From: Streptomyces sp. NBC_00654
Lineage (GTDB): Bacteria > Actinomycetota > Actinomycetes > Streptomycetales > Streptomycetaceae
Assembly: GCF_026341775.1 (NCBI RefSeq)
Contig: NZ_JAPEOB010000001.1
Location: 4,645,009 to 4,709,008, forward strand
Reading direction: 5' to 3'
DNA length: 64,000 bases
Shown: positions 7,166 to 61,310 of the stretch, one piece after another
Numbering within the stretch: position 1 is the first letter of the stretch
Layout of the letters: every line of letters starts with the position of its first letter
Position numbers and translations under genes: made by a program
Notes under the pieces: generated by a model
Databases searched by the model: none
Told to the model about the DNA's origin: nothing
What the model saw: the letters and a program-made list of their open reading frames with translations, nothing else

Positions 7166-7270
7166 GCCGACACAGCACGAGACCCCGGGCGATGGCGCCC
7201 GGGGTCTCTCTGCGACATGACGTGACGTCTGTCCTGCCGGTTCAACGACCGGCCACGGCCGGTGTCACGC
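7166..7270. repeat. Structured intergenic repeat, copy A
   Basis: Copy A of a family seen five times in the window. It comprises GCCGACA, a strong hairpin (GAGACCCCGGGCG / CGCCCGGGGTCTC with loop ATGG, 7179-7208), the block GACATGACGTGACGTC, a small hairpin CCGGT-TCAACG-ACCGG and the closing GGTGTCACG. The first hairpin is a good factor-independent terminator for the small gene just upstream. Confidence 0.8.
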
Positions 7271-7602
7271 CCCATGCCGGCATCACCCCGCTTACCCCGA
7301 ACCCGCCGCGCTCGGGGGTGTGTTGGGCGGGCGGCCGGCGGTTCGGACGGGGGGATTGTCGTCCTGGGCCTGGAGGGCCGAAGTGACTCCGGGCGGCTGC
7401 AGGCGCGATGGGGCTGGTCGATTCATCTGCGAAGCCGCCCGTCGCCTCCGCCACCTGGTGCTGTTCGAGTCGTGTTCGTCGATGGGAGCCGTCTCACCGG
7501 GCACTGACACCGAACGCCGCGAGGCTTCGTCGTGTCACTCCTTCGGGTGTGATTTCGTGATTGTCGTTCTCCTGGCCGGAGTACGCGGATAGCTTCGCCG
7601 GC
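7271..7602. other. Intergenic stretch without a supported gene
   Basis: All frames here look like shadows. I see no convincing promoter, gene or structured RNA between repeat copy A and the next gene. Confidence 0.35.
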
Positions 7603-8110
7603 ATGGCGACAGGTGATGCTCGGGTGGAGATCGGCGCGGTGCAGGCGGCATGGGATCAGGCGTGTGTTCTCCGGTCGCAGGACGCCCTGGAGAAATGGCC
7701 CGGCCTGTCCAGAAGCATCACGGCGGCCACCGCCATCCACAGTGCTGACGAACTGCACCGGGGAACGGTGCTGCTCCTCGGCAGCGCGCTGGGGCAGATC
7801 GGGGCCGGCAGCCCCGCGGGACGGCGCAATGCCGAACGGTTCACCAGCACCCTGATGACCAAGGTCGGCCAGTGGGCCGGGACCGAGGCCGTGGAACGTT
7901 CCGACCTGCCGATGGTCCGCCAGGCCGTGACCGTCGCCTTCGAGGGCCGTGACCCGGTGGCCTGGCGGGACCGGGCCACCGGTCCCCGACAGCGAACGAC
8001 GCGCGATGACCTGCGCACTCGCATTGACCGCGGACTTCGTGGACCTGATCGACGGACCCGGATCATGCGAACGCACCCTCCTGGCATCATTCGGGCGCAC
8101 TCTCGACTGA
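7603..8110 (+). pseudogene. Unrecognised gene with probable frameshift near 7970
   Basis: From ATG 7603 the protein reads MATGDARVEIGAVQAAWDQA and continues as a convincing helical protein to about GRDPVAW (7965). After that the original frame becomes Arg-rich, while another frame gives a natural-looking end (RRAMTCALALTADFVDLIDG then PGSCERTLLASFGRTLD and a stop at 8108-8110). A single-base change at about 7965-7985 would join them into a protein of about 168 residues. The family is not recognised. It may be a real lesion or a sequencing error. Confidence 0.5.
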
Positions 8111-8253
8111 TCTGATGCCGACCGGGAGAAGCGGCCCGGTTTCGCGGAGCGGCTGCCTCGTCTGGGCAGCGGGTACCTCAGAGCAGTTCGGGCCGGTGGG
8201 CTTTCCGGGGAACCGGTCCGGCAACCCCGAGCGCGGCCATCGGACATGAGGCG

Positions 8254-8480
8254 ATGAGGGACTTCGAGGGCGTGGTGGCCGAGTTCCGTGCGACCGCCGC
8301 GCGATTGGCCCGGCAGGCTGACGCGCCGACTGATCCCCGCAAGGCCCTGTGCCTCAGTGAGACCGGCCGTGTACCGCCGGGCATCGCCGCCGACGCCCCG
8401 GCCCCCCGCCCACTTCCTGTGTCTTTACCGAGCCTGCCCGCAGGTTCGCCGCCCGTCGACCGCACCTGGACCACGACTGA
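8254..8480 (+). other. Possible N-terminal gene remnant
   Basis: A frame beginning MRDFEGVVAEFRATAARLAR looks like the start of a helical protein but soon turns into Pro/Ala-rich sequence. It runs in frame into the following hydrolase, yet a much better start for that gene exists at 8494. Probably a truncated small gene. Confidence 0.25.
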
Positions 8481-8493
8481 CAGGAGCCATGCT

Positions 8494-10468: not shown

Positions 10469-10469
10469 A

Positions 10470-10844: not shown

Positions 10845-10880
10845 CCAGTTCAACGACTGGCAGCGGTCGGCGTCACGCCC
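10845..10880. repeat. Fragment F of the structured repeat
   Basis: Only the second half of the repeat survives: CCAGTTCAACGACTGG followed by a GTCACGCCC end. Both arms of the small stem have changed together (CCGGT/ACCGG to CCAGT/ACTGG), so pairing is retained. The bases just before (about 10828-10843) resemble the end of an IS30-type element. Confidence 0.6.
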
Positions 10881-10963
10881 GCTCCATCGCCCGTCGCGTG
10901 TACCGGCTCGCGGTCATCTGTCAGCTTACGCTGGCCGGTTCTCCGTTCTCGGTTCTTACGGAG

Positions 10964-11377: not shown

Positions 11378-11969
11378 CTGGTTCGACCCTCCTGCGAAGT
11401 TGTCCAAGGGGGCGGGCCGGCATGCGGTGCGCCTCCGCTCCCTTCTTCGTAGATGAACTCTAGGGCCGTGTATTTGCGGGATACAGTCATGCGGCGGACA
11501 TTGGCGGATAACTGAGGACCGCTTGACACTTGACCATGCCTGGCATGACCTCGTCATGCTGCCCATTAGAGGGGGCTGTTCATACCCATACTGGTGGCCA
11601 CGGGGCTCCTCGCGAATGGCCGAGAATTCCGCCGTTCGCCCGTTGGCTCTGCCGGTAGAACCCTTACGAACCCATGGAAGTTCAACGACCGGCCATGCCC
11701 TGCGTCACGCTCGCTCCGCCCCGGGCCGCGCGAGCGGGGGCGCTGCGCCGCTCCGTGGGCGCCGTGAGGACGGTGCGGGTCCCTGTGGATCCCGCACTGT
11801 CCACTGTCGGTAGGCCCGCATCGCGCCTGTCAGGCGATGTCGTCTTCGCGGCACATATGGGTATGTATTAAGCAAGTGCCATTGAAATAGAGGCAGTTGG
11901 CATATTCGTGATGTACCGGCACTTTTTCATGCATCGCCCGGGTGGGTGGTGCGAGGGAGGGAGAGCAGC
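11378..11969. other. Intergenic region with a repeat fragment
   Basis: There is no supported gene. It holds the divergent upstream regions of the secreted protein and the HTH-like gene. Bases 11685-11716 (GTTCAACGACCGGCC and a following CGTCACGC) are a second fragment of the structured repeat. The last 100 bp are AT-richer and probably include the promoter of the next gene. Confidence 0.4.
11685..11716. repeat. Fragment G of the structured repeat
   Basis: A short remnant sharing GTTCAACGACCGGCC and the terminal GCGTCACGC with the full copies. The large terminator hairpin is absent. Confidence 0.4.
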
Positions 11970-12713
11970 ATGGGCAGGCGCATGGAGTACGACGGGGACC
12001 ATGCGGCCGGGCGGCTGGGGGTGCCGCAGTACGCGTTCCGGTGGGCGGTGCGCACCGGGGCCGTGCCGGCCCCGGACGCAGGCCCGGAGACATGGTCACG
12101 GGCCGCGGTGGAGGCGATGGACGCGGAGGCGATCCGCACCGCGATGGGAGGCGGGCCGCTGAGCGGCCGGCAGGCTGCCGACCGGCTGGCCGAGGCCCTG
12201 GGCACACCGGCCCCGTCCGGCGCGACGACCCTGGTGGAGCTGGAGAAGGCCGGGCTGCTGTTCAGCCTGTCCGCCGACCCGGAGCAGCTGCTGTTCCACC
12301 CCGGGCAGATCGCCACCCTGGCAGCCCGCCCCGACCCGGCCCGGCTGCTGGCCGGGGCGGCGCTGCTCGGCCCGGACCAGGCCGCCGCGCGCCTCGGTGT
12401 CCGCCGCACCGACTGGGACCACCTGAACCGGCTCGACTGGATCACCCCCGACCAGGAGGTACGGGTGAAGTTCGGCGCGGCCCAGGGCGGCACGCACCGG
12501 ATCCCGCTCTACCGCACCGACCGCATCGACCGGGTACCGGCAGACCACCCGGAAGCGGACTGGGACGCGCTGCGCGCGCTCCGCAAAGGACAGCGCTCAC
12601 CCCTCGCCAAGCTCACCAGCGGAGCGGAAAATAGAAGGGGAAGCGCTCGGCCACATGGAGTTCCCGAGTACCCCGGACGACGCCACGTGATGCCAGCTGC
12701 GCCGACAGCATGA
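11970..12713 (+). CDS. Predicted DNA-binding protein with a chimeric C-terminus
   Basis: ATG 11970 is preceded by GGGAGGGAG. The protein starts MGRRMEYDGDHAAGRLGVPQ and has three repeats of an HTH-like pattern: DHAAGRLGVPQYAFRWAVRT (about 10-29), GRQAADRLAEALGTPAPSG (about 68-86) and DQAAARLGVRRTDWDHLNRL (about 132-151). These look like excisionase or plasmid-type DNA-binding units. After about residue 220 (KLTSGAEN) the frame becomes Arg/Pro-rich: from 12637 the DNA instead encodes, in another frame, the tail of the small protein at 6946-7155. The native C-terminus was therefore replaced. A partial copy of residues 50-110 lies at 21237. Confidence 0.6.
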   Translation: MGRRMEYDGDHAAGRLGVPQYAFRWAVRTGAVPAPDAGPETWSRAAVEAMDAEAIRTAMGGGPLSGRQAADRLAEALGTPAPSGATTLVELEKAGLLFSLSADPEQLLFHPGQIATLAARPDPARLLAGAALLGPDQAAARLGVRRTDWDHLNRLDWITPDQEVRVKFGAAQGGTHRIPLYRTDRIDRVPADHPEADWDALRALRKGQRSPLAKLTSGAENRRGSARPHGVPEYPGRRHVMPAAPTA

Positions 12714-12804
12714 GACCCCGGGAGCCAACGCCCGGGGTCTCTGTGTGACATGACGTGACGTCTGTCCTGCCGGTTCAACGACCGGCCAAGGCTGGTGTCA
12801 CGCC
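12701..12804. repeat. Structured intergenic repeat, copy B
   Basis: The stem GAGACCCCGGG / CCCGGGGTCTC has the 8-base loop AGCCAACG. It is followed by the same GACATGACGTGACGTC block, CCGGTTCAACGACCGG hairpin and GGTGTCACG end as copy A. It also shares about 50 bp with copy A on the left, including the tail of the LPDTPDGTP-type gene. Confidence 0.8.
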
Positions 12805-12910
12805 CTACGTCTGAACAGCGGGCGTGACTGGAGAACGTGTCGCTGTGTGCTCCGGGCCCGCCGGCGCTGTTTGCGCGGGCGGGCTCAGTGTGTGGGCGGC
12901 GGTGTCGGGC

Positions 12911-14072: not shown

Positions 14073-14461
14073 CATGTTTCTCCTTGTTCCAGAGGCAGCC
14101 GGGCGGCTGCTCGGTCGAGTCGTTCCTGGGCGAGTCCTGCTCCTTCTTGGCCTGGGCTCCTTCCAATCGGGATGCGGTCCCCTGTGACGCACCCTGCGGG
14201 TGGCGGCTGGCCGTGATGGTTCGCCGGGTTCGGGTTTGTGGTTCGCGGGCCGGCCGACCGGGTGTTGCGGGGCGGTGGTGTGCGGTCCGACGAGTTCGAT
14301 TTCACCGGGCGGGGAGTTGATTGGCAGCCCGTCTGAGCTGCACTGATCAATCATTTTTGGGGGATGGCTCGTTTGGCACCTGCCCCGTTGCGGCCCTGTG
14401 GCCCGTTTCCCTACGGTGGCCGTTCGCACAGGGCCGGCCGGTGTGGGAGCGGGGAAAATAC
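14073..14461. other. Divergent upstream region
   Basis: There is no supported gene. It contains the upstream regions of the secreted SH3-like protein (minus) and of the large nSTAND gene (plus). The segment near 14340-14365 is AT-richer and could be the nSTAND promoter, but no clear boxes are seen. Confidence 0.35.
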
Positions 14462-17400
14462 GTGGGGCGTCCGGAGAACCCGATCGATCCGCAGGACGGG
14501 CCGATTGCGCGGTTCGCTCACGAGCTGCGCAAACTGCGGGACGAGGCCGGCGCACCCGCCTACCGGGCCATGGCACGGCGGGCCGGCTACTCCGGGGCGA
14601 CACTCTCGCAGGCCGCCGGGGGCGAGCGTCTACCGACCCTGCCGGTCCTCCTGGCCTACGTCACCGTGTGCCGCGGCGACACCGCGGACTGGCAGCACCG
14701 GTGGGAGCGGGCGAACGCGGAACTCCTGCGCCTGCCCCGCCCGGCGGACCAGGACACCGAACCCCCCTACCGGGGGCTCGCACGCTTCGAGCCGGGTGAC
14801 GCGGACCTGTTCTTCGGCCGCGACCACCTCATCGACGACCTGCTCGAACTGGCCCGCAACCGCCGTGTCACCGCCCTTGTCGGAGCGTCGGGCAGCGGCA
14901 AGTCCTCCCTCCTGCGCGCCGGCCTGGTACCCCACCTCCGCCACACCGACCAACCCGCCCCACGGCCCGCAGCACTGCGCATCATCACCCCCGGCGCCCA
15001 CCCACTGCGCACCCACGAACAACGCCTGACCCCCGTAGCCACGACGGGTGGGAACGAGGGGGCGGCGACGTGGCTGATCGTCGATCAGTTCGAGGAAATC
15101 TTCACCCTGTGCCGGGATCCGGCCGAACGCACCGCGTTCATCGACCGGCTCCTGACCGCCAACGATCCCGACAGCCGGCTGCGCGTCCTGATCGCGATCC
15201 GGGCCGACTTCTACAACCGGTGCCTCGAACACCACAACCTGACCACCGTGCTGCGCGACGCCACCATGCCCGTCGGGCCGATGAACGCGGACGAACTGCG
15301 GGAAGCGATCGTCAAGCCCGCCACCGCCCGCGGACTGATCGTCGAACGCGGCCTGACCGCCCGCATCCTCCAGGACATCGACGGCGAACCCGGTGCCCTG
15401 CCCCTGATGTCCCACGCCCTCCTGGAAACCTGGCGCCGCCGCAGAGGCAAAGCCCTCACCGAAGCCGCCTACGACGCCGCCGACGGACTCCACGGCGCCA
15501 TCACCCACACCGCCGAAACCGCCTACACCACCCTCACACCCGCCCAGACCCTCCTCGCCCGCCGTATTCTGCTCCGCCTCATCACTCCCGGCGAAGGGAC
15601 CCAGGACACCCGGCGCCCCGTCGACCGCACCGAGCTCGACACCGCGGACCCCACCGACACCAACGCCGTACTCGAACGCCTCACCTCCGCCCGCCTCCTC
15701 ACCGTCGACGGCCCCACCATCGACCTCGCCCACGAAGCCCTCATCACCGCCTGGCCCAGACTCCGCCGATGGATCGACGAAGACCGCGAACGCCTGCGCA
15801 TCCACCGCCAGCTCACCGAAGCCACCCACATCTGGAACAACCTCGACCACGACCCCGGAGCCCTCTACCGCGGCACCCGACTCGCCACCGCCGAAGAAAC
15901 CTTCACAACACCCCAGGCACGATCCGACCTCACCCTCCCGGAACAGGAATTCCTCACCACCAGCACCACCACCCGCCACCACGAAGAACACAACGCCACC
16001 CGCACCACACGACGCCTGCGCCGGCTCACCACCACCCTGGCCGTCCTCCTCGCCCTCGCCCTCACCGCAGGAACCATCGCCTGGGACCAGTACCGCACCA
16101 GCGACAAGGAACGCCGCAGAACGTCAACCGCACAGCGCGTGGCGCAGTCCCGGGAGCTCGCCGCGCAGTCGGCAGCGCTGCTCGGCACGGACTCCGACCT
16201 CGCCTCACTGCTGGCCATCCAGGCATACAAGAGCCACCGGACCCCTCAGGCGCTGGAGAGTCTCCAGGCGGCGGCTGCCGCTCCTCTGCTTCAGAGACTC
16301 ACCGGGCACAACAACTGGGTGCACGCGGTGGCTTTCAGCCCCGACGGCCGCACCCTGACCACCGTCGGCGACAACGAAGCCCTGCTGTGGAACGTGACTA
16401 CGGGCCGTCTCAGCAAGCCCGTTCCCGATTTCAGTAAAGGTGTGTCCGCCCCCATGTCTATCAGTCCAGACGGGCAGACTCTGGCCACAATCCCCTTTTC
16501 GGACGGCCAAGAGGTGAGGCTGTGGGATGCGGCTGCCGGCCGCCTCCGCACGTTTGTTGGCGAGCGGGCCCGCAGAACGTTCGCACTGCAATTCAGTCCC
16601 GATGGGCGTACCCTCGCCACCGCGAGCACCCACGGGATGGTTCTGTGGAATACAAAGACCGCCAGAGCTCTTACCACCATTCGTCTGCAGAGTGAGGACT
16701 ACATGGCAGTGATGGCGTTCAGCCCTGACGGACGTACCCTGGCCGCCATCAGAGGTTCCGACCACAAGATCCTGTTGTGGAACGCGGCTACGGGCCACCT
16801 CCGCAAGGCCTTTCCCGGAGTTGCCGGAATGGTCGGCTCCATGGTTTTCAGCCCCGATGGACAGACACTGGCCACCGCGTTCGGCACCAATAACACTCCG
16901 GTGCGACTGTGGGACACCTCCACAGGCCGCCTCCGCAGAAGCCTCGACAAGCAGGCCAACGAGACAACGTCGTTGGCCTTCAGCCCAGACGGGCACACTC
17001 TGGCGACCGGCGGAGCTGATCACACGGTACGGCTGTGGGACACAGCCACCGGCAGCTCCGTCGCCTCGCTGCCAGGGCATACCGACATAGTGTCGTCAGT
17101 CGTGTTCAGCCCCGACGGGCATACCCTCGCCACCGGCTCCTGGGACCAGACGGTCCGGCTGTGGGACATGACAGCCACCCGAACCCGAGCAGTCCTTGCC
17201 GGGGAGGCGGTATCAGATGTGACATTCAGTCCGGATGGGCGCTCCCTGGCAACCGCCAGCAGCTTTCCCACCCAGTTGGACAGGTGGGACATAGCTAGCC
17301 GGAAGCCCCGCCTCCGGGTCTCCATACCGTTCAAAACGCCGGGCACGGTGGTCTTCGGCCCAGACAGACGGACCGTGCTCGACGTCGGCTTCCCTGACGG

Positions 17401-21680: not shown

Positions 21681-21783
21681 GGCCACAGCACGAGACCCCG
21701 GGCGAATACCCGGGGTCTCTGTGTGACATGACGTGACGTCTGTCCAGCCGGTTCAACGACCTGCCACGGCTGGTGTCACGCCC
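21681..21783. repeat. Structured intergenic repeat, copy C
   Basis: The stem GAGACCCCGGG / CCCGGGGTCTC has the 6-base loop CGAATA. The GACATGACGTGACGTC block and the GGTGTCACG end are intact, but the small hairpin carries a mismatch (GACCTG in place of GACCGG). On its right it keeps the last codons of a helicase gene, on its left the HTH-gene fragment. Confidence 0.8.
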
Positions 21784-39315: not shown

Positions 39316-39410
39316 GCCGACAGCACGAGACCCCGGGGGATGATGCCCGGGGTCTCTCTGTGCAGTGCCGTTCGTCCGGTTCAACGACCGGCCGCAGCTG
39401 GTGTCACGCC
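39316..39410. repeat. Structured intergenic repeat, copy D
   Basis: The stem GAGACCCCGGG / CCCGGGGTCTC has the 8-base loop GGATGATG. The middle block is shortened (TGTGCAGTGCCGTTCG in place of the GACATGACGTGACGTC block), but the small hairpin CCGGTTCAACGACCGG and the GGTGTCACG end are kept. The GTCACGCCC end holds the stop codon of the helicase on the minus strand. Confidence 0.8.
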
Positions 39411-42064
39411 CATTCCATCCCGAGCTCGGCGAGGGCCTGGCGTTGTTCGGGGGTGAGCTGGTGGCGTCGGGTTTTGGTGTTGCTGATGAATACGCCGAGT
39501 TTCACGACGTGCTTCTGGCCGTCGACCTCGACGGGTTCTTCGTGTTTCCTCGGGACGGGCCGTTCGTGTCCTTCGCGCTGGAGGTACTGCGCAAGGGCCG
39601 CGACTCCCCGCCGGAACGGCGCCGACAAACCGCCCGCCCCCTTCGCCACGCGTGTTGTCACCGGGGCGGGTTCCGGCTCGTCCGGTGTCACGCCGAGCCT
39701 GCCGAGGCGTTCCTGCTGCTCATCGCTCAGCTGCGCCCAGGTGTGCGCCTTCCGCTGCTGCGCCAGCCATTTCCCCAGGTCGTCGCCTTCGAAGAGGACA
39801 CCGGGCTGGATGTCGGGGAGGTTTCCGCTGGCCTCGGTGTCGGCAAGATCAGCGAGGACCCGGTGGTGCCGTTGCCAGTCGAGTGGCCACAAACAGTTCC
39901 AGTCTTCATCGATGGCGGCCAGCTGCATGGCGCGTGTCCCGGCCCGTTCCGGGTCTTTGCCCAGGCCGTCCTTCCTCCGCAGGTTGGCCATGAGCTGCCC
40001 GATCGCTACCAGTTCGTCGTCCGCCTCGCCCCACACGGCGTCCTGCCGCGGCGCCAGATGCCCGTGGGCCCGGTGGAAAGACCGCAGCGCGGCGAGCTTC
40101 GCTTCCCACGCCTCGTCGCCGGGCTCCCAGACCATGCTCTCCTGGTCGAGGAGTTCCTTGCGGTGGTCGTCGAGCTCACCGGCGCGCAGCGCACGCCGCT
40201 GCTGGTGGACCCACCGGCCGAGGGGGAACCGGGTGACGCCGACTTCGGTCTCGGTGTCGTACGGCACCGCGTACAGCCCCGCAATCTCGTGCTCTTCCCT
40301 CCACCGTCGCAGTGCCTGGTATCCGTCGAGCCACACCAGTGACTCCGGCCGGAACACCCGGGTCCGGAGAAACGCCGCGATCGTCGCCGGGTCACGCGGC
40401 GTCGAGAAGTGCAGCAGCGCCGACTCGACCACGGCCTCCGTGCCGTCCTCCAGGGCGACGGCCTCACCCTCGCCCTCGGCCGGGATGATCCGCCCGTCCT
40501 CGTCCCGCTGAATGTGCACCGGCCGTTCCCGGCTGCTCCGTGTCAGGGCACGGGAGGCGAGTTGCTCGACCAGGCGCTCATCATGAGAGCGGAGGCCCTG
40601 AAGGAGGGCTACAAGGGGTGCAAATGAGGCGGAGGCGACCATGTCGGTGGGGTCCTCACCAGGCTGCAGGAACACTGGGACGATGATCCTGGCGACCTTC
40701 GTCGTCCCGTCCGGGTTCGGGCGCAGCGCACGTCCGATGTTCTGGACGATCTCGACCTGCGACCCGCGGGTGTCCGCGAAGCAGACGGCTTCGACGCCGC
40801 GTTCGCCGACGATGTCGACGCCTTCCCCGAGGATGCGTACGGAGGCGAGGAATGCCCGGTGCACGCGGCGGTCCTCCGCATCGATCCCGTTGGCGAACTG
40901 GCGGAGGACTTCGCGCCGCTCGCTCACGAGGTGGTCGCCGCACAGCCAGTTCGCCCAGACCCGGTCCGGCGGGACATGCCGGTACGGTTCCAGGTCGTAG
41001 AGCTCCGCCTTGATCGAGGACGTCGGCAGCTTGGCGGCGTCCTTGAGGAACCGGTCGGACGCCTCGGTCGCGTAGAGCTCGGCGGCGGTCTCGGGCAGCT
41101 TCTCCGCGAAGACTCGGGCCTCCTCGACCCGCTGGTGGAACGTCAGCACGGTGCGCAGATTGTGGGCGGCCGCGTGCTCCAGGAGCGCGGTCTGCAAAAG
41201 GGCGAGGCGCCGGCCGCGCAGCGCTTCCTCGGACAGGCCGAGGACTGGTTCGGGGTCGCGGATCTCGATCACGTCGATCTCAAAGCCCGCGAGTACGCCC
41301 CGTTCGACGCTCTCCGAGAGCCCCAGCTCGAAAATCCACTCGCCGTAAGGGCCAACCGGATCGCTGCTCATGCTCGCGATCTCCAGTTCCTTACCGTCCT
41401 TGCCCTTCTGCGGCCGCGGCGAGGCCAGGATCCGCGGGGTGGCGGTGAGGTACAGGCGGAAGTCAGCCGGGATGCGGGCGTTGTCGTGGATCGCTGCCCA
41501 CGGACGGCCAAGGTCACCGGCTGTGGAGTGCGCTTCGTCGATGATGGCAAGGTCGAAGCCGCTCATGGACTGCCCGTACAGCCGCTCACCACCCGCGAGA
41601 GCGGCCTCCAGCGGCCCCCGCACCCTCTCCTGACCCACCGGGGCATCGACATCCTCCCGGTCCACGAGGGAGGCGTACGTGGCGAACACCACCACCGGCC
41701 CGCGCCCGGCCCACAACGCCAACTGGATCGGGTTCGTGGTCGTGTTCACCCCGAGCGCCTCCAGGACGTCGTCCTTCTCCAGCGAACACACCGCGACCAT
41801 CGGCCCGTTGTGGCCGACCCTGCGCCAGACGAGGGCGGTCTGCACGAGGAGGTCCAGGGTGGGGATCATGACGAGGATCCGGCCGTCCCGGAAGTTGTCC
41901 AGGGCGGCCCACGCGGCGGTGATGGTCTTGCCGGACCCGGTGGCCGACACGACCGTGGCGCGGGCACCGCTCTCCGAGACGGCCGTTCTTGCAGGGAACC
42001 CCACCCACTTGCGGATGCGCGCGTTCGCATCCACCTGGTGTTCCCGAAGCTGAATAGCGGCCAT
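39404..42064 (-). CDS. SF2 helicase with helicase-associated repeats, copy 1
   Basis: An 886-residue protein from ATG 42064 (MAAIQLREHQVDANARIRKW). The first RecA domain has Walker A VVSATGSGKTITAAW (about 38-52), DEAH (176-179) and TATPRILASP (about 207-216). The second domain has GEGVDIVGERGVEAVCFADT and EIVQNIGRALRPN (about 430-470). The last 300 residues are three or more helicase-associated repeats of about 65 residues with W and G-x-L-x-P patterns. It is an ATP-dependent translocase on nucleic acid. AAAGGGA lies upstream. A second copy at 61304 differs by about 55 residues with no gaps. The family is widespread on actinobacterial mobile DNA; its role is unknown, with anti-phage or element maintenance as possibilities. 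Confidence 0.9.
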   Translation of the reverse strand: MAAIQLREHQVDANARIRKWVGFPARTAVSESGARATVVSATGSGKTITAAWAALDNFRDGRILVMIPTLDLLVQTALVWRRVGHNGPMVAVCSLEKDDVLEALGVNTTTNPIQLALWAGRGPVVVFATYASLVDREDVDAPVGQERVRGPLEAALAGGERLYGQSMSGFDLAIIDEAHSTAGDLGRPWAAIHDNARIPADFRLYLTATPRILASPRPQKGKDGKELEIASMSSDPVGPYGEWIFELGLSESVERGVLAGFEIDVIEIRDPEPVLGLSEEALRGRRLALLQTALLEHAAAHNLRTVLTFHQRVEEARVFAEKLPETAAELYATEASDRFLKDAAKLPTSSIKAELYDLEPYRHVPPDRVWANWLCGDHLVSERREVLRQFANGIDAEDRRVHRAFLASVRILGEGVDIVGERGVEAVCFADTRGSQVEIVQNIGRALRPNPDGTTKVARIIVPVFLQPGEDPTDMVASASFAPLVALLQGLRSHDERLVEQLASRALTRSSRERPVHIQRDEDGRIIPAEGEGEAVALEDGTEAVVESALLHFSTPRDPATIAAFLRTRVFRPESLVWLDGYQALRRWREEHEIAGLYAVPYDTETEVGVTRFPLGRWVHQQRRALRAGELDDHRKELLDQESMVWEPGDEAWEAKLAALRSFHRAHGHLAPRQDAVWGEADDELVAIGQLMANLRRKDGLGKDPERAGTRAMQLAAIDEDWNCLWPLDWQRHHRVLADLADTEASGNLPDIQPGVLFEGDDLGKWLAQQRKAHTWAQLSDEQQERLGRLGVTPDEPEPAPVTTRVAKGAGGLSAPFRRGVAALAQYLQREGHERPVPRKHEEPVEVDGQKHVVKLGVFISNTKTRRHQLTPEQRQALAELGMEWA

Positions 42065-42231
42065 TCCTTGACGTCCCTTTCTAGAAGTTGTGCGGCGCGA
42101 ACGGCGGAACGGCGAGGACGCCCGCTGAGCCGACCGCGCCGTGCTGCGCGAGCTGGGGGAGGGCCTGCTCCACGGTGGGGCCTGTGCGCTCGGACACCGT
42201 AAGGAGCCGGCGGCCGGCAACACGGGTGGGG

Positions 42232-42705
42232 TCAGTTCCTCATCATGCGCAGGGCGATGGGGCGTGACACGGCCGGGGCGGCGCGGCGGGCGAGCTCGTT
42301 GGCGCCGTGCCCCCGGGACCGGGCGGTGCGCAGGGCTTCGGCGAGCTGGTCTTCGGCAGCGCTGGTCTGGGCGGCCAGCCATCGCATGCGGTCGCGTGCG
42401 GCGTCCACGGCGTCGAGTTCGACGGCCGGGTCCTCCAGCTCGGTGCAGTGCACTGTGGTGAACGGTTCGCCGTAGCCGTCGGGTGCGTCGGCGAAGGCGA
42501 CGGTGACGCGGAGCTTGGGGTTTCCGTACTCGTCGGTGAGTTCGTCGCCGGAGAGGTCCTCGTCACTGATCCAGTTGCGGAGCACGGTCCGGCCGTAGTC
42601 GCCGGTGGTGCCCTCATGCTCCTCCGGGGCGTCGCCGGTGATGACGGTGAACCATTCGGGCTGCTCGCCGGAGGCGGCGGCTTCGATCGTGTGCAGGAGC
42701 TGCAT
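42232..42705 (-). CDS. Hypothetical protein upstream of helicase copy 1
   Basis: A 157-residue acidic protein. MQLLHTIEAAASGEQPEWFT begins it; the middle FADAPDGYGEPFTTVHCTEL suggests a beta-sheet and the last 60 residues form a long helix ending in RRAAPAVSRPIALRMMRN. ATG 42705 has GGGAGG 8 bases upstream. It is co-oriented with the helicase, 167 bp away, so the two may share a transcript. No family recognised. Confidence 0.65.
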   Translation of the reverse strand: MQLLHTIEAAASGEQPEWFTVITGDAPEEHEGTTGDYGRTVLRNWISDEDLSGDELTDEYGNPKLRVTVAFADAPDGYGEPFTTVHCTELEDPAVELDAVDAARDRMRWLAAQTSAAEDQLAEALRTARSRGHGANELARRAAPAVSRPIALRMMRN

Positions 42706-51000: not shown

Positions 51001-52406
51001 TGTACGCGTGGGACACGGCCGCCCGAAAGCTCCTGTCGTACGGATACGTTGATGAGGACGCCGCAAGCGTGACCACACACATGAGCCCGGACGGAACGCT
51101 CGTGGCCAGGAAGGTGAAAGGCGCCATCGTCGTCTCCAGCAGCGAGCACCTGGAAACCCCCCTACTGACACAGGAGACGGCGATGTGGAGCGAGAAGGAG
51201 GGTGGAATGGACGCCGGGGGCGGGGCAAACGTCGGGTGGGGGCTGGCTATCAACTCCGAGGCGCACGAGTTGGTTTACCTGGACGGCAACTCGGTACACA
51301 CACTGGATCTGGACACCTTGAAGCTTCCTCGGCAGGCGGAGTTTGCCGAAATCGGCCGCTATGACGCAGAGACCGGGAGTCTGCAGATCGTGGTCACGGG
51401 CAAGGGCTCACGGGTGCAGTCGTGGGAGATTCCCGACGGGACGCGAACGAGCCGCGCGCTGCCGGAAATGGCGTCCGACGTACCCGCTACGCTCACTTCC
51501 TCCTATCCAAGTCTGGGCAGGCATCTCGGAGACGAAGACCTTCCGGCCGTGTTCAGCCCGGACGGGACCACTGTGGCATACCCCGATAATGCAGGGTCTC
51601 AGGAGGGAAAACCCTTCCATATGGTTCTGCAGGACGTACGCACGGGAAAAGTGCGTCATTCCGTGCTGCTGGAAGAGCCGGAGCGCGGCTACGTCACCTC
51701 AATGGCCTTCAGCTCCGATGGGCGAACGCTTGCGGTGAGCCGTTTGGTGGCTGTCAACCAGGACGCATGGTCCGTCGACATCGTCGATGTCAGGAAAGGC
51801 AGGAAAACCCGCACACTGGATGGAGTCGGCGGCTACGGGATCGCCCTGGGCGGGGCCGGGGACGACATGGTCCTCGTGACCACGTCGGGCGACCGGGCTG
51901 ACCTGTCGGGCGGAAAGAAAGTCCGTGGGGCGCTCGGCACGGTCGAACTCAGCGATGTGGAGTTCAGTCCTGATGGAAAGACACTGGCTGTCGGTGAACC
52001 AGAGGGGGTCGCGCTGTGGAACGCGGACGGGACGCAGCGGGTGGGACGACTGCCCGCCCCGGAGGGCGGCGGTGATCGCCGAGTTTCGAACCTGCGGTTC
52101 TCCCCCGACGGCCGTTCGCTCGTCGGCGTGGTGGGGGAGAACCGGATCCAGATCTGGGACGTGCCCTCCCGGCAACCGGTGGGCGGCGTCCTGCCCGGTG
52201 TCGGGGACCGGTTGCTCGACGTGGTGTTCGACGACAAGGGGAACCTTCACCTGGCCGGGGAGAAAGTCCGCTCGTACACACTGACCCTCGATCCGGACAA
52301 GCTCGCCGGGGACATCTGCCGGCGGGTGCACCGGGCGAAGAACCTGACCCGGGCGGAGTGGGCGCAGAACGTGCCGAACGCGCCGTACCAGAAGGTCTGT
52401 GCCTGA
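48063..52406 (+). CDS. Trypsin-nSTAND NTPase-WD40 giant protein
   Basis: A 1447-residue protein. Residues 30-240 are a trypsin-like serine protease with His in TCAHVV (about 62), Asp in EDIAFVELD (about 106) and Ser in TGFSGGPVVDG (about 181). A nSTAND1 NTPase follows, with PYRGLEPFTAEHTQWFHGRE, Walker A GPSGAGKSS (about 276-284) and Walker B LLLVIDQFEELL (about 349-360). One membrane helix lies near 703-722 (AVLLVTALTAGAVAW). Residues 780-1440 are WD40-like blades with FSPDGKTLAV and RLPAPEGG-type turns, more divergent than those of the gene at 14462. The protease is the likely effector, released by NTPase assembly. Coupled to the Trypco1 gene. Confidence 0.9.
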   Translation: MSIRDGLPTGHGINGLVGADPDRAASGAGRGSVPGSVVQVLALDGGVAGAGFLVGEGVVVTCAHVVRAAGREPGSQVELAFPHLPGAPRVWGAVLAEQWREPKAEDIAFVELDSVPPGVRALPLGSGAGCQGHGVSSFGFPTQAPPGGHFGWGTVGDLLPDSTGTGVLLQLSGANELTTGFSGGPVVDGVSGLVIGMVTSIASPDAHLRGLGIAYCTPAEVLRKVRPDLAEHQVCPYRGLEPFTAEHTQWFHGRETAVESVLDALGGQRRMLLLLGPSGAGKSSLIQAGVLPALTDGDLPGSDRWLSLVTRPGQDLFTELEQAGLPGATSDGLLPAVQRRLDNEPGQDRLLLVIDQFEELLTQLAPTEHGTPDRRAAAVAELLALIDSPAAASVILIMRDDFYPQLAALAPGLLEAAAPATLNVPATLNDRELEAIITLPAQAVGLGIEDGLTARITTDIRATDPGNRAPVTLLPPLELALSQLWERRENGRLTHRAYEQIGGVTGSLATWCDSAIRRLPAEHESTAKHILTSLVRPADQAHAIPATRQQIPLSRLRASTTGSTAAGEASGVFKSVLDALIGYRIITTRTVKQPGAAMGESTAELIHDALIRDWGALRDWVAQDHNFQVWLHRIDEQQRRHAETGMPGDLLDGTALAEGTDWVRRHRPLSPEITTYLATSQQRQQATRAEDSRRHRQRRRLRSGIAVLLVTALTAGAVAWQFRRTNAEQQALATARTVAAVANGMRATDPETAALLSIAAWRTAPAVEARGALSQSAVQREIAVFHDPTKSPGAFEAEMSRALSADGRYLTTEVHAAALATKTTRFDIRTGKPAALDKDGKTFDIVAPDGKFALSGGVVSDIGTDEPVGKVPDTEDYARALASGGGRVLTTKADTGPSSVIDTQTGRTLLQVPDPHPALSDDGRYLASCPEGGYPVLYDTESDGSTKLQDANPEAKCDDTSAVWSSADGTRLLTSTGGRLYAWDTAARKLLSYGYVDEDAASVTTHMSPDGTLVARKVKGAIVVSSSEHLETPLLTQETAMWSEKEGGMDAGGGANVGWGLAINSEAHELVYLDGNSVHTLDLDTLKLPRQAEFAEIGRYDAETGSLQIVVTGKGSRVQSWEIPDGTRTSRALPEMASDVPATLTSSYPSLGRHLGDEDLPAVFSPDGTTVAYPDNAGSQEGKPFHMVLQDVRTGKVRHSVLLEEPERGYVTSMAFSSDGRTLAVSRLVAVNQDAWSVDIVDVRKGRKTRTLDGVGGYGIALGGAGDDMVLVTTSGDRADLSGGKKVRGALGTVELSDVEFSPDGKTLAVGEPEGVALWNADGTQRVGRLPAPEGGGDRRVSNLRFSPDGRSLVGVVGENRIQIWDVPSRQPVGGVLPGVGDRLLDVVFDDKGNLHLAGEKVRSYTLTLDPDKLAGDICRRVHRAKNLTRAEWAQNVPNAPYQKVCA

Positions 52407-52880: not shown

Positions 52881-53951
52881 TCAACTCGCTGTGGGGACGG
52901 TCCGTGGTGCGGGTCGGATCAGGTGGTAGACCTCGCGGATGACGTAGCGTTTGAGGCAGCGGATGATCTCGCGTTTCGTCTTGCCCTCGGCGGTGCGGCG
53001 GGTAACGTAGTCGATCGTCGGTTGGTGGAATCGCATGCGGACGATGACGGTGCGGTAGATCGCGGCGTTGAGCTGGCGGTGGCCGCCGTGGTTGATGCGG
53101 TGCCTGCCGCTGGTCATGCCGGAGCCGGTGGGCACAGGAGCGATGCCCGCAAGCTTGGCGAGGGCGGCTTCGGACTTGATGCGTTCGGGGTTGTCGCCGG
53201 CCACGACGAGGATCTCCGCGGCGGTGTCCACACCGATGCCGAATGGTTCGAGTAGTTGCGGGGCGGCACGGTGGACCAGCTCAGCGATCATTTTCGTCAG
53301 TTCCCTGGCCTCGGCGTCGAGGTACTGCCACCGTTTGGCCAGTGTTCGAAGGGCGTGACGCAGTGCGTCCTCGGGGCCCTCCAGCTGTCGAGGACGCAGG
53401 CCCGCCAGGCGCCGGGCCAGAGCGATTTGAGTTTTGCCCGCGGTCTCGTTGCGCAAGAGATCAGGAGCGTGGACAAGCATCGCTTTCATGGTGACCATCG
53501 CCGCTGAGCGCTGTTCGACGGCCTGGTCATGGGCGATCTTGAGCTGCCGGATCATCTCGGCTTCACCGTCGGCGCTCTTGGGCGTGGCCGTCGCGAACCC
53601 TGCCAGGACGGCTCGGGCGGCGTTCTCGGCGTCCAGGGTGTCGGACTTGCCGTTCATCCGTCGCAGCCGCCGGTCCGGGCGGCCGGCCTCGACCACCTTG
53701 TGCCCGGCCCGTCGAAGGAACGAGGCCAGGGTGGCGCCGTAGGAGCCGGTACCCTCGATTCCGAAGGCCAGAATCCTGCCGTATGAGCCTGCCCAGTCCA
53801 GGAGTTGCTGAAATCCGCCGGTGTCGGTGGGGATCGTCAAGGTCGCCAGGATCCCGCCGATCGTGTCCATCACTGCAGCGACGTGCACATGCTTGTGTGT
53901 GTCGACGCCGATCACGACGTGCCCGGACCTGTGCTGCTCGTTGTTGTCCAC
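52881..53951 (-). CDS. IS110-family transposase 1
   Basis: A 356-residue enzyme from GTG 53951, 5 bases after GAAGGGA. The N-terminal RuvC-like DEDD domain starts GHVVIGVDTHKHVHVAAVMD and includes GIEGTGSYGATLASFLRRAG and MNGKSDTLDAENAARAVLAG. The C-terminal Tnp20 domain has LAGIAPVPTGSGMTSGRHRI then NHGGHRQLNAAIYRTVIVRM with the catalytic Ser. It recombines DNA as an RNA-guided enzyme. The frame is intact. Confidence 0.85.
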   Translation of the reverse strand: MDNNEQHRSGHVVIGVDTHKHVHVAAVMDTIGGILATLTIPTDTGGFQQLLDWAGSYGRILAFGIEGTGSYGATLASFLRRAGHKVVEAGRPDRRLRRMNGKSDTLDAENAARAVLAGFATATPKSADGEAEMIRQLKIAHDQAVEQRSAAMVTMKAMLVHAPDLLRNETAGKTQIALARRLAGLRPRQLEGPEDALRHALRTLAKRWQYLDAEARELTKMIAELVHRAAPQLLEPFGIGVDTAAEILVVAGDNPERIKSEAALAKLAGIAPVPTGSGMTSGRHRINHGGHRQLNAAIYRTVIVRMRFHQPTIDYVTRRTAEGKTKREIIRCLKRYVIREVYHLIRPAPRTVPTAS

Positions 53952-54282
53952 CGCGTTCCCTTCGGTCGGTAGCGTGGGGTGCACGCTGTCGCCGGCCGGA
54001 GGGACAGGACTGTCACGGGGACGCTTTGACGAGTTGGCTCCAGGCTCCTGACTTGTTCAATTGCGCCCAGACGCGCGGTCTGCAGCCGTAGCGTCCAGGG
54101 TGTCGGTCGGCACGGGCCCGCAGTGCTCCTTGCCGCCCTCGGGCTGGCTCACTGATAGCGTGCCGCCGCCGGCCGACACCCGCGCGGTGTGGCTCGACAG
54201 AGGCATGAAGGTGACGCAGTGACTTCAAGTCAGGGTGCCCACCGCACTGCCCTTCCTGTCTCATCGAGTGCGAGGCCAGCCT

Positions 54283-55317
54283 GTGATCCTGATCGGTATC
54301 GATCCCCACAAGTCGTCCCACACCGCCGTTGCCGTTGACTCTTCAGGTCATCAGGTGGCCCAGCGCCGGTTCGTCGTCAACGCGGGCACGTTCCGCCAGC
54401 TCATGCGCTGGTGCGAGCAGTGGCCTGAACGCCGTTTCGCCGTCGAAGGTGCCGGCGGCCTGGGCCGTTCGCTCGCCCAGCAGCTGGCCGCCGCGGGCGA
54501 GAACGTGGTCGACGTGCCTTCCACTCTGTCGGCCAGGGCCCGGCTTCTGGCCACCGGCGGAGACCGCAAGACCGACGCCAAGGACGCCCTCCACGTCGCC
54601 CAGGCCGCCCTGTTCCGGAACGACCTGCGGGCCGTGGTGCAGGAAGACCAGACCACGATCCTGCGGCTGCTGACCGAACGGCGCGACGACCTGGTCCACG
54701 AGCGCACCCGCGTCCTCAACCGAATGCATGCCGTTCTGCGTGATCTGCTGCCGGGCGGTGCCCCCACGGGGTTGTCGGCCGACAAGGCCGCCGCTCTGAT
54801 GAAGGGCATCCGGCCAGTTACGGCCACCGACAACTGCCGCCGGGACATAGCGCGTGACCTGCTGGCCGACCTCCGCCGTCTGGACCGGCAGGTCAAGGAC
54901 AACGAGGCCGAGATGCGCGAGGCTGTCGCGGCCACCCGCACCACGCTGACCGTCCTGCCGGGCCTGGGCACCGTGCTGGCCGCGAAGGTCATCGGCCACA
55001 TCGGGGACGTCAGCCGCTTCCCCACCGAGCACCACTTCGCCAGCTACACCGGAAGCGCGCCTCTGGACGCCTCCAGCGGCAACAACGTCCGGCACCGGCT
55101 CAACACCGGCGGCAACCGTGCACTGAACTCGGTCCTGCACACGATCGCCGTCTGCCAGATCCGTGACGGCGGGCGCGGACAGGACTACTACCTGCGCAAG
55201 ATCGCGGAGGGCAAGACGCCGGCAGAGGCTCGAAGGGCCCTGAAACGGCGTCTGTCCAATGTGGTCTACCGGATCATGAAACGCGACCAACGGACCCACC
55301 TCGCTCAGGCCGCTTGA
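54283..55317 (+). CDS. IS110-family transposase 2
   Basis: A 344-residue enzyme from GTG 54283, with ILIGIDPHKSSHTAVAVDSS, RFAVEGAGGLGRSLAQQLAA, GGDRKTDAKDALHVAQAALF in the RuvC domain and FASYTGSAPLDASSGNNVRH then RLNTGGNRALNSVLHTIAVC in the Tnp20 domain. It is of a different subgroup from transposase 1 (shorter, different spacing), so it is a separate insertion. The frame is intact. Confidence 0.85.
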   Translation: MILIGIDPHKSSHTAVAVDSSGHQVAQRRFVVNAGTFRQLMRWCEQWPERRFAVEGAGGLGRSLAQQLAAAGENVVDVPSTLSARARLLATGGDRKTDAKDALHVAQAALFRNDLRAVVQEDQTTILRLLTERRDDLVHERTRVLNRMHAVLRDLLPGGAPTGLSADKAAALMKGIRPVTATDNCRRDIARDLLADLRRLDRQVKDNEAEMREAVAATRTTLTVLPGLGTVLAAKVIGHIGDVSRFPTEHHFASYTGSAPLDASSGNNVRHRLNTGGNRALNSVLHTIAVCQIRDGGRGQDYYLRKIAEGKTPAEARRALKRRLSNVVYRIMKRDQRTHLAQAA

Positions 55318-59370: not shown

Positions 59371-60264
59371 TGAGCCTTTTCCAACCTCATGTTGAGGCGT
59401 GGTGGAGGACGAGGACTGCCTTCACGATGTCGGTGATCCGGTTGGTGCTGCAGCGGAGCTTCCGCAGGAGGCGCCAACCTTTCAGCACGGCCATGGCCTG
59501 CTCGCCGACGCAGCGGATCTTGGCGTGACTGCTGTTGTGCCGTCGCTTCCAGCGCTTGAGCCGTCGGCCCCGGAAGGGGACTCGAATGTGCCGGCCGGCG
59601 CCTTGGTAGGCCTTGTCCGCCCAGCACTTCAGTCCTGCGGCCGCGAGCGCGTCGACGATGCCATGGCTTCGGGCCGCGGTCAGGTCGTGAGTGGCTCCAG
59701 GCAGAGCCGGGGAAGCCCAGAGCAGTCGGCCGAATGGGTCGGTGAGGACCTGGACGTTCATGCCGTGCCGCTTGTGTTTTCCCGAGTAGTAGGGGGTGTC
59801 GGCGGCGATCCGGTCGATCGGCAGCAGAGTGCCGTCCAGGATCACGAACGCTTTCGTCCGGGCCGTCTCCATCGCCTGGGCCAGGGTCGGAGCGCGAACG
59901 GCCAGGACTTCGATGGCCTCGTGTATGTACCGGTAGACGGTAGCGATGCCGATTCCGAAGCCGGCGGCAAGCTGGGCGTAGGTGTCGCCGCACCGCAGGT
60001 GGGCCAGGGCGAGCAGGGCCTGGCGGCCGGCGGGCAGGCGTCGCCACCGGGTACCGATCTCCCGTCGCCGGACTGCAAGCTGCTCGGCCAGGTGCTGCAA
60101 GGTACTGCTGGAAAGATCGATCGACGACGGGTAGGCAAGCACGCGAAGCTCCTGGCGGACACGGGTGATCTTGGTCGAGAACCCGTCTACCAGGAGCTTC
60201 GTCGTTCCGTACAGCCCGCACCAACCAACACCACAGCCCCACGGTCAGGTTGAAAAGGACTCCA
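59371..60264 (-). mobile_element. IS5-family (ISL2-like) element
   Basis: The ends AGCCTTTTCCAACCTC near 59373 and AGGTTGAAAAGGACTC near 60262 are inverted repeats with one bulge. An ATG flanks both (59370-59372 and 60264-60266), a possible 3-bp target duplication. The element inserted directly next to the IS630 end. It carries one full-length transposase. Confidence 0.75.
59387..60142 (-). CDS. IS5/ISL2-type transposase (DDE_4)
   Basis: A 251-residue transposase from ATG 60142. It has an HTH (YAQLAAGFGIGIATVYRYIH) and a DDE_Tnp_4 core: Asp in KAFVILDGTLLPIDRI, Asp in LKCWADKAYQGAGRHI and Glu in IRCVGEQAMAVLKGW. The frame is complete, ending just inside the element, and looks intact. Confidence 0.85.
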   Translation of the reverse strand: MLAYPSSIDLSSSTLQHLAEQLAVRRREIGTRWRRLPAGRQALLALAHLRCGDTYAQLAAGFGIGIATVYRYIHEAIEVLAVRAPTLAQAMETARTKAFVILDGTLLPIDRIAADTPYYSGKHKRHGMNVQVLTDPFGRLLWASPALPGATHDLTAARSHGIVDALAAAGLKCWADKAYQGAGRHIRVPFRGRRLKRWKRRHNSSHAKIRCVGEQAMAVLKGWRLLRKLRCSTNRITDIVKAVLVLHHAST

Positions 60265-60385
60265 TGTATGCAGATAGTTGGGGGCGACCGGAACGACCGA
60301 GCGATCGCCGGGCCGACGTACGGATGCCGCACGTCGGCCTGGTATTTCGGTTCTGGTAGCCCCAAGGTAAAAGTGAAGGTGAAAT

Positions 60386-60802
60386 GTGAAGATAATTTGG
60401 CCCCTAATCAGGCTCGGATGCATCGTTTTGTCGGCAGTCGCGCCATTGTCCGTCCTCTACTACGTCTTTTTCGGCGTGTTCGAGGCGCAGTCCGGAGCGG
60501 ATGTGCAGAGCGGGGGTCGGTGGGCGGTTGCACTCCAGGTTGCCCTTCCCGCAGCGGCCGTCGAATTGGGGACCATCATGGTCGTGATGCTCTGGGCCAA
60601 GGCGATGAGCACCAATCCCGCCTCACGTTCCGCTCGCGTTGTCTCGGTCGCAATGGCCGCCCTCTGCGCGAGTATCCTCACCTCGTTCTTCGTGGGCCTG
60701 GCGGCGTGGCCCGTGGTCCTATTGAGCTGCATTGTGCCTGCCAGCCTGGCCTCCTCTGCCTTCATGCGGTCTACTACGGCCGTGACCACCCCGCGCGCCT
60801 GA
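60386..60802 (+). CDS. Small membrane protein of unknown function
   Basis: A 138-residue protein from GTG 60386, with GAAGG 6 bases upstream. Four hydrophobic helices: IIWPLIRLGCIVLSAVAPLS (about 3-22), VALQVALPAAAVELGTIMVV (about 48-67), VVSVAMAALCASILTSFFVG (about 85-104) and AAWPVVLLSCIVPASLASSA (about 106-125). No conserved motif is recognised. It stands alone between IS copies. Confidence 0.7.
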   Translation: MKIIWPLIRLGCIVLSAVAPLSVLYYVFFGVFEAQSGADVQSGGRWAVALQVALPAAAVELGTIMVVMLWAKAMSTNPASRSARVVSVAMAALCASILTSFFVGLAAWPVVLLSCIVPASLASSAFMRSTTAVTTPRA

Positions 60803-61203
60803 GAGTGGCGAATTCCAGGGTCGTAGCAACACAGTGATCAACTGGCTGTTGCCAGGAGCTTAGCGAGACGCTCGGCTGGGGTTTCCCAGCTGAGCGTTTT
60901 GCGTGGTCGGCTGTCCAGCTCGGCCGCGACGGCGTCCAGTTCCTCACAGGTTGTAGCGGGCCAGGTGGGTGCCTGCGATCTCTCGGGTTGGTGTCAGTGG
61001 CGGTGAGGGTCAGTGGCGGGGATTGTTGTCGTGGGTTCTTGTTGCTGGTCAGAGCGGTGTCGATCGTCTGGTTTCACTGTCATGAGGCGTTATCTCATGG
61101 TGGGTGACGCTGTCTCAGGTTCGAGAGTTCTTATGTAGTGAGGCCGGTGGGCGCGGTCTGACCGTACCCGGGCCGCCGACCCCGACGCGCTCTGATCACA
61201 GCG
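60803..61203. other. Debris between IS elements
   Basis: It holds the IS30 remnant at 60838-60950 and the GGTTTCACTGTC-type remnant at 61069-61080 that also occurs near 43680. The frame ending ADPDAL at 61194 is the tail of a lost gene next to repeat copy E. No complete gene is present. Confidence 0.4.
60838..60950 (-). pseudogene. IS30-family transposase, C-terminal end
   Basis: The minus strand encodes CEELDAVAAELDSRPRKTLS then WETPAERLAKLLATAS and a stop. RPRKTL and W-x-TPAERL are the hallmark end of IS30 transposases. Only about 37 codons remain. Confidence 0.8.
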
Positions 61204-61310
61204 GCCGACAGCACGAGACCCCGGGCGGTAAGGGCCGCCCGGGGTCTCTGTGTGACATGACGTGACGTCTGTCAGCCGGTTCAGCGGCGGGCTGCGGCTG
61301 GTGTCACGTC
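61204..61310. repeat. Structured intergenic repeat, copy E
   Basis: The stem is extended with matching pairs (GAGACCCCGGGCGG / CCGCCCGGGGTCTC, loop TAAGGG). The GACATGACGTGACGTC block and the GGTGTCACG end are kept, while the small hairpin has drifted (CCGGTTCAGCGGCGGG). The end holds the stop codon of helicase copy 2 on the minus strand, as copy D does for helicase copy 1. Confidence 0.8.

Follow-up and report, generated by a model that had tools for sequence, protein, structure and literature searches.

A short polar repeat accompanying the terminal helicase gene of linear Streptomyces replicons seems to mark present and former replicon ends

An intergenic repeat of about 105 bases recurs in Streptomyces sp. 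NBC_00654, and its conserved end, GGTGTCACGCC, when read on the opposite strand, consists of the stop codon and last codons of an inward-transcribed terminal DEAD/HA helicase (ttrA-like, as assigned by domain, position, and orientation). We consider it probable that the repeat is a hairpin terminator module that accompanies this helicase and represents the scar, perhaps also a homology patch, of successive replacements of replicon ends. Its copies seem to mark present or former ends and not accessory-gene boundaries in general. A first-pass annotation of the stretch of 64,000 nucleotides analyzed here (the window) had already described a structured, dispersed family, and this part of its interpretation stands; it had missed the helicase-derived tail, the polarity relative to the telomere, and the marking of replicon ends.

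The window contains five full copies, all on the + strand, and one clear fragment, together with two terminal-type helicase genes:

7172-7278, + strand: full copy, long allele (with the GACATGACGTGACGTCTGTC block), found by profile HMM and blastn; no helicase detected on its right side.
10845-10887, + strand: fragment with the tail and second hairpin only and a compensated stem, CCAGT/ACTGG (HMM 19 bits, E 2.7e-4).
11680-11715, + strand: marginal fragment with GTTCAACGACCGGCC and the GTCACG tail (HMM 11.5 bits, E 0.07; 31-bp blastn match, E 0.0017).
12705-12811, + strand: full copy, long allele (HMM); the copy and both flanks are common to a plasmid of Streptomyces sp. NBC_00053.
21685-21789, + strand: full copy, long allele; behind it, a very short relic of the helicase 3' end extends 15 bp past the model.
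39320-39417, + strand: full copy of the short allele (GCAGTGCCGTTC) that overlaps the stop codon of the helicase.
39404..42382, − strand: terminal-type DEAD/ResIII helicase with HA domains, 992 aa, C-terminus ELGMEWA.
61208-61317, + strand: full copy, long allele; its first stem is the longest among the window copies, and it overlaps the stop codon of the helicase.
61304..63964, − strand: terminal-type helicase, 886 aa, with 36 bp between its start codon and the end of contig C1.

The HMM was derived from the five full copies themselves, which it scores at 87-111 bits. The annotation had counted two fragments in addition to them, of which the one at 10845 is sound and the one at 11680 marginal (E 0.07). 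It had correctly noted the replaced middle block of copy 39320, the extended first stem of copy 61208, and the compensated CCAGT/ACTGG stem of fragment 10845, while its invariant 11-bp stem with differing loops, GAGACCCCGGG/CCCGGGGTCTC, is indeed identical in the five window copies but varies in the wider family. A search of the window against Rfam gave no match above the gathering threshold. The copies are arranged head to tail.

The HMM found 24 copies, full or close to full, in the searched stretches of this genome, and blastn with the 7172 copy located 21 additional genomic sites at E 1e-10 or better, including the other four window copies. Matches also occur in 14 Streptomyces plasmids and, at E 1e-6, in at least 21 of 295 congeneric genomes (at least 73 at E 1e-3); strict filters with at most 13 candidates scored per genome make these counts lower bounds, as are those of a further congener search with 14 candidates per genome, and at least three of the 21 genomes (our own, NBC_01237, and NBC_01260) supplied sequences to the model. 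Many of the weaker matches among the 295 genomes are distant from contig ends and were taken as chance hairpins. No phage record matched at E 1e-3, and a phage origin was rejected. The profile searches and the copies in plasmids and congeners thus bear out a real, structured, dispersed intergenic family, and the tail is conserved beyond this genome, contrary to what a merely local duplication of one terminator, the fallback considered in the annotation, would predict.

Read outward, an intact end presents the inner gene, then the repeat, the helicase, and the telomere. The repeat overlaps an annotated helicase CDS in six plasmids, as it does the helicase ORFs at 39404 and 61304 here, and in 60 of the 60 plasmid rows listed (of 415 matching records) the helicase is transcribed inward with its 5' end at most 6.4 kb from the record end. 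An exception is NBC_00289, in which the repeat and an intact helicase lie about 15 kb inside the plasmid end. Such a location, a few kb from the end and with inward transcription, is that described for the Streptomyces terminal helicase TtrA on chromosomes and plasmids, with named exceptions, among them a plasmid on which ttrA is directed outward (PMC8743542). The portion of that report available to us covers the gene and its position, but mentions neither a conserved module behind the stop codon nor stacked 3' relics (PMC8743542).

The copies are strongly polar. In a hand-chosen list of 43, 39 are oriented toward the nearer replicon end (p 3e-8; 35/38 without G009 and four further NBC_01237 copies), and the four with the opposite orientation lie 94-298 kb from an end. 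This list is restricted to one representative of TIR duplicates (without C3 of NBC_01237 and C2 of G118). It likewise omits the second copy of G174 and that of G091 C2, two kinds of poorer material, namely weak copies (one in G118; L087_6710 in NBC_01237) and those from short draft contigs, and our own draft genome. Of 31 genome copies, 29 are found within 300 kb of an end (the other two at 0.7 and 2.5 Mb), and in one congener four contig ends each have a copy about 3.8 kb inside, directed outward in every case. The proposed siting at the 3' ends of accessory genes holds in part only, as the terminal helicase is, or formerly was, the gene on the outer side; with a helicase end there, a general accessory-gene boundary element was rejected.

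These features are consistent with a module situated between the last inner gene and the terminal helicase of linear Streptomyces replicons, with the second hairpin directly behind the helicase stop codon, which would move together with the helicase when replicon ends are exchanged. If an end were lost by a break in or beside this module and repaired using the DNA of a different end, what remained would be a scar consisting of the module and a shortened 3' part of the helicase gene. The relics fit this expectation in their one-sidedness: among 18 incomplete helicases of this genome (neighboring match rows joined by hand), the 3' end is reached in 13, the 5' end in none, and neither in five. 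Across 65 copies, the adjoining helicase is intact or continues to the edge of the stretch in 12, whereas remnants measure 300-2299 bp in nine and 31-299 bp in 12; in 31, at most 30 bp or nothing was detected, and one copy was too short to judge (inclusion of L046, an NBC_01237 copy with no adjoining helicase, gives 32/66 in the shortest class). Relic lengths thus deviate widely from a uniform distribution. Since 31 of the 64 assessable copies keep at most 30 bp, a single random break in a 2.7-kb gene is no explanation, and the relic lengths need either later decay or a preferred breakpoint.

As many ends carry the repeat in the same polarity, it probably also serves as a shared sequence for recombination between ends, by which scars would stack and inner and outer flanks would mix. 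Flanks are indeed mixed. Among 62 pairs of copies that share the left flank, the block allele differs in 29, the right flanks are unrelated in 48, and one or the other applies to 51 (without L046, 27, 46, and 49 of 60), and in 77 of 90 pairs with a shared right flank the left flanks are unrelated. For 46 of 60 pairs, the point at which homology stops falls in the repeat or in the 50 bp that follow, compared with 16/60, 12/44, 6/32, 6/26, and 9/20 in successive 100-bp windows leftward, the repeat bin being 155 bp wide and L046 not included; the pairs in both the flank and the break counts are not independent. Antisense self-matches of hairpin 1, L036 (contig end), L018_4243 (short flanks), copies truncated in the HMM match, and L050 (the same copy as L086_9439) had been dropped. 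Individual mosaics exist as well: L033_2779 matches window copy 39320 with one mismatch from the left flank through CCGGTTCA and window copy 61208 from CCGGTTCAGC through CGTCCATT, and its helicase is 98% identical to that at 61304 and 93% to that at 39404. Likewise, L033_16025 and L029_827 are identical up to GACCCCGG and diverge beyond. As our assembly is a draft of 15 contigs that are interrupted in these very repeats, a mosaic might contain a chimaeric join.

Hairpin 1 is probably a terminator, judging from its fold and covariation, and might be usable from both strands. In an alignment of 46 of 48 sequences (one each from L055 and L018 omitted), 91% of its cells are paired and four of 13 pairs change on both sides, A-U to G-C in eight of the 46 sequences and C-G to U-A in four and in three. 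The covarying stems of the first-pass annotation are thus clear for hairpin 1 but hardly so for the second (tail) hairpin, in which one cell changed on both sides and many pairs are broken, and to which two alternative pairings are in parts no worse; in the long allele, pairing between block and tail (CGTGAC with GTCACG) is kept and hardly varies. Folding of five copies (three from the window, two others) gave z values of -2.8 to -8.8 on the + strand and of -4.6, -2.5, -6.1, -8.0, and -2.6 on the − strand. A U-rich tract behind the stem is not present, the window copies continuing with TCTG or TGTG and few U, nor are there A-rich tracts in the repeat. Streptomyces terminators, as characterized in PMC12207403, are long stable hairpins with few U, and A-rich tracts, a feature of bidirectional terminators, are virtually absent in this genus. 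With its GC-rich stem of 11-20 bp, small loop, and compensatory changes, hairpin 1 resembles them; unlike them, the repeat is conserved over about 105 bp including two more parts, and many copies have no clear gene to terminate, as far as a crude gene finder can tell.

An alternative would be that the terminal helicase simply has an ordinary terminator region, which was duplicated along with adjacent DNA and is maintained because termination is selected for, whereas the dead helicases around it decay; the repeat would then have no role in recombination. The covariation of hairpin 1, its good folding on both strands, and the conservation of the repeat between nearly random flanks in the long copies all agree with such a scenario, as do ten hand-picked 3' flanks of other terminal helicases, five of which show a strong hairpin by eye and RNAfold (best model match 27 bits). 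We nevertheless regard it as unlikely, as the block allele differs in many pairs with the same left flank, homology breaks peak at the repeat, and the terminator stem is less conserved than the 20-bp block. Moreover, the orphan copies show no clear preference for gene 3' ends: 62 copies comprise 20 convergent, 33 co-directional, and nine divergent settings as compared to 72, 141, and 67 among 280 control gaps, according to a crude home-made GC3 gene finder that misses genes. The general tie to gene 3' ends suggested by the annotation is accordingly not strong by these counts. Both the ten flanks and the placement of the orphan copies count against the preferred reading, too.

The preferred reading, a helicase-borne module left behind by end replacement, has parallels elsewhere. 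Yeast X and Y' elements are subtelomeric repeats that mediate end exchange, and the Streptomyces repeat is similarly polar, close to ends, common to unlike ends, and mixed in its flanks, but differs in being bacterial, 105 bp long, and derived from a gene 3' flank. Streptomyces ends are known for their fast turnover, and it is difficult to reconstruct past events. With a short polar marker that stems from the region of the terminal helicase, former ends could be counted and ordered; such a marker also supplies an origin for debris in Streptomyces subtelomeres and makes the focusing of end exchange at one sequence a testable question. For Streptomyces arms, loss and replacement, recombination between duplicated sequences, NHEJ with DNA capture, and telomere replacement have been described (PMC5869714, PMC7205883). 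The end replacement proposed here is of the same kind as the events in these accounts, which in the parts at hand describe no recurring short junction sequence (PMC5869714, PMC7205883).

Carried to its extreme, the repeat would be a bacterial subtelomeric element, polar and dedicated to exchange, in which the hairpin and 20-bp palindrome actively cause ends to break or pair. Chromosome and linear plasmids would then trade genes, helicases, and telomeres like interchangeable segments, and stacked copies would form a readable record of past ends; we find this doubtful. Still more doubtful is the specific extension of the preferred reading to a dedicated exchange site, at which GACATGACGTGACGTCTGTC and hairpin 1 would be recognized by a protein or cut as a cruciform and ends would break or recombine. 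The block is a near-invariant imperfect palindrome with a diversity of 0.087 in long copies, as opposed to 0.24 for hairpin 1 and 0.56-0.58, near random, for the flanks (34 rows classed as long, of which at least two, L084_11706 and L087_6710, lack a true block). In this genome, 13 of 14 block matches with up to three mismatches lie inside the repeat (the 14th, with three mismatches, lies outside; the reversed control gave none), which, along with the concentration of homology breaks at the repeat, would suit such a site. However, the short allele lacks the block and is still found at working ends and in mosaics, and recent spread could also explain block identity. Finally, a small mobile element (MITE or REP-like) that inserts itself at gene ends would account for the many copies with differing flanks, the sharp boundaries of the long allele on both sides, and a 20-bp block identical in several strains, but it is very improbable, given that orientation is not free of replicon polarity (39/43 toward the nearer end) and that the right end of the repeat is helicase coding sequence.

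The repeat, an intergenic module of about 105 bases between the last inner gene and the terminal helicase of linear Streptomyces replicons, is best read as a subtelomeric repeat that probably derives from the terminator region of a gene. From its inner to its outer side it runs from CCGACAGCAC through hairpin 1 (GAGACCCCGGG, a loop and CCCGGGGTCTC) and a middle block to CCGGTTCAACGACCGG and finally GGTGTCACGCC. On the opposite strand, this tail reads GCG TGA CAC C, the closing codons, together with the stop, of a helicase of DEAD/ResIII type that carries HA domains. The window makes up the rightmost part of contig C1 in the 15-contig, 9.6-Mb genome and holds the following copies and helicases:

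7172-7278, + strand, full copy of the repeat
10845-10887, + strand, clear fragment of the repeat
11680-11715, + strand, marginal fragment of the repeat
12705-12811, + strand, full copy of the repeat
21685-21789, + strand, full copy of the repeat
39320-39417, + strand, full copy of the repeat
39404-42382, DEAD/ResIII helicase with HA domains, its 3' end being the repeat tail on the opposite strand
61208-61317, + strand, full copy of the repeat
61304-63964, DEAD/ResIII helicase with HA domains, its 3' end being the repeat tail on the opposite strand

In six linear plasmids, the annotated helicase stop codon is overlapped by the repeat; the helicase 5' end lies at most about 2 kb from the record end in five of them, where one or two small genes follow it outward, the exception being NBC_00289 (about 15 kb inside). 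A tblastn search against plasmids matched 415 records, and in 60 of 60 among the matches listed the helicase 5' end lies within 6.4 kb of the record end with transcription directed inward (topology as given in the fetched records only, one of which, CP128849, is labelled circular). By position, the terminal helicase is ttrA-like, as ttrA has been described at the same place (PMC8743542). Among ten further hand-picked terminal-helicase 3' flanks, two of them unannotated and with the stop set by hand, the best model match reached 27 bits; five contain a strong hairpin, that of SAP1 including CCGGTTCAATGATCGG.

The covarying stems proposed in the first-pass annotation were borne out for hairpin 1, where 8 of 46 sequences show a compensated change from A-U to G-C, and where C-G becomes U-A in 4 of 46 at one pair and 3 of 46 at another, but not for the tail hairpin behind the helicase stop codon, where convincing covariation was not found in the alignment of repeat copies. 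The middle block exists as a long allele (GACATGACGTGACGTCTGTC) and as shorter ones, for example, GCAGTGCCGTTC. In the long allele, its 20-bp block is able to pair with the tail, and this stem is retained and nearly invariant. For the 34 sequences classed as long, of which two or more do not belong there, mean site diversity is lowest in the block (0.087), followed by the GGTTCAACGACC core (0.16) and hairpin 1 (0.24), and reaches 0.56-0.58 in the two flanks.

When the window and another 15 stretches fetched from the same genome were searched with the HMM, leaving short fragments aside, 24 copies proved full or nearly so and three partial, and blastn located at least one more beyond these stretches (C8:21911). 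The copies are clustered and occupy a single strand within each contig: + at 4.56-4.71 Mb of C1 and on C5, - on C6, C8, and C12 and within 125 kb of the start of C2. Both C1 (window 64000) and C6 (G000:C6:1) break off about 40 bp or less from the starts of terminal helicases that are nearly identical to each other, so that the assembly seems to have been interrupted in a repeated replicon end.

Among 43 copies hand-picked by score on contigs with known ends, 39 are directed to the nearer replicon end (binomial p 3e-8), comprising 27 of 31 genome copies and 12 of 12 plasmid copies; counted per replicon end, the figure is 23 of 26. Most genome copies (29/31) are no farther than 300 kb from an end, the remaining two being at 0.7 and 2.5 Mb, and one congener has four contig ends that each carry an outward-pointing copy about 3.8 kb inside. 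The four wrong-way copies, three of which belong to NBC_01237, are at distances of 94-298 kb from an end. In genome G019, inward-pointing copies are paired (one of the four is weak) at 7.94 Mb of C1 and 1.30 Mb of C2, some 290-300 kb inside the right ends of these two replicons, and look as if a whole segment had been inverted.

Loss of the helicase is one-sided in the own genome. Here, 18 incomplete helicases (derived from 41 rows of the helicase search) include 13 that reach the 3' end, none that reaches the 5' end, and five that reach neither; the farther a relic is from the end of the contig, the lower its identity (Spearman -0.72, n=11, p 0.013, a small set on unfinished contigs). Across all sources, 12 of 65 copies adjoin a helicase that is either complete or continues up to the limit of the stretch, nine retain 300-2299 bp of it, 12 retain 31-299 bp, 31 retain at most 30 bp or nothing detectable, and one was not assessable. 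This surplus of very short relics misfits one uniform break and requires decay or a preferred breakpoint.

The copies are also mosaics, as judged from 63 copies with flanks and with shuffled maxima as the chance level. Of 62 pairs sharing the left 100 bp (at least 85%), 29 carry unlike block alleles, in 48 the similarity of the right flanks does not exceed the shuffled maximum, and 51 show one or the other; conversely, left flanks are unrelated in 77 of 90 pairs with a common right flank (at least 80%). For example, the copy L033_2779 follows that at window 39320 with one mismatch from the left flank through CCGGTTCA and that at 61208 between CCGGTTCAGC and CGTCCATT, while L033_16025 and L029_827 are identical through GACCCCGG and diverge after it. 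Homology spanning the left edge stops in the repeat or the following 50 bp (a 155-bp bin) in 46 of 60 pairs, as compared to 16/60, 12/44, 6/32, 6/26, and 9/20 in successive 100-bp windows leftward and 6/14, 0/8, 2/8, and 0/6 farther right, counts that are descriptive only because the pairs overlap.

The place, polarity, and mosaic make-up of the copies, the origin of their tail, and the one-sided helicase loss are observed facts; the probable scenario that goes beyond them is that hairpin 1 stops transcripts, perhaps from both sides, that replicon ends break within or near the repeat, and that new ends attach through it or beside it. Unequal exchange between non-allelic copies, for which shared polarity would be needed, may then generate the stacked copies. 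In Streptomyces, it is documented that arms are lost after breaks, that recombination between sequence copies serves repair, that NHEJ captures DNA, and that telomeres are switched (PMC5869714, PMC7205883).

By blastn, the repeat occurs in 14 Streptomyces plasmids and in at least two of 61 genomes including its own, with no match among phage records. Eight matches to the exact block come from the two assemblies named in the genome collection search, TSRI0281 and AW19M42, and in the own genome 13 of 14 matches with up to three mismatches fall inside the repeat. Of 295 congeners, the covariance model matches at least 73 at E 1e-3 and at least 21 at E 1e-6, and the latter include no fewer than three that had supplied sequences to it. 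A published account of such a repeat was not found in the titles and abstract openings of the matches listed, subscription literature being mostly outside the scope. A second set of copies with the long allele (L012, L014, L016, L019, and L022, from NBC_01237 and TSRI0281) has shared sequence reaching about 600 bp to the left and 400 bp to the right at most. It comes with a small gene on the minus strand whose product ends near WPQDED and, in L012 and L014, with pentapeptide-repeat genes farther out.

Other genes in the window include:

14321-18172, + strand, large nSTAND1-WD40 protein
35417-37831, - strand, NACHT protein
48063-52406, + strand, large nSTAND1-WD40 protein with a trypsin-like domain
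52881-53984, - strand, IS110-family transposase
54235-55317, + strand, IS110-family transposase

The nSTAND1-WD40 and NACHT proteins are STAND-type NTPases, genes for which are common in defence islands, and all lie in one subtelomere; the two transposase genes are divergent, with about 250 bp between them.
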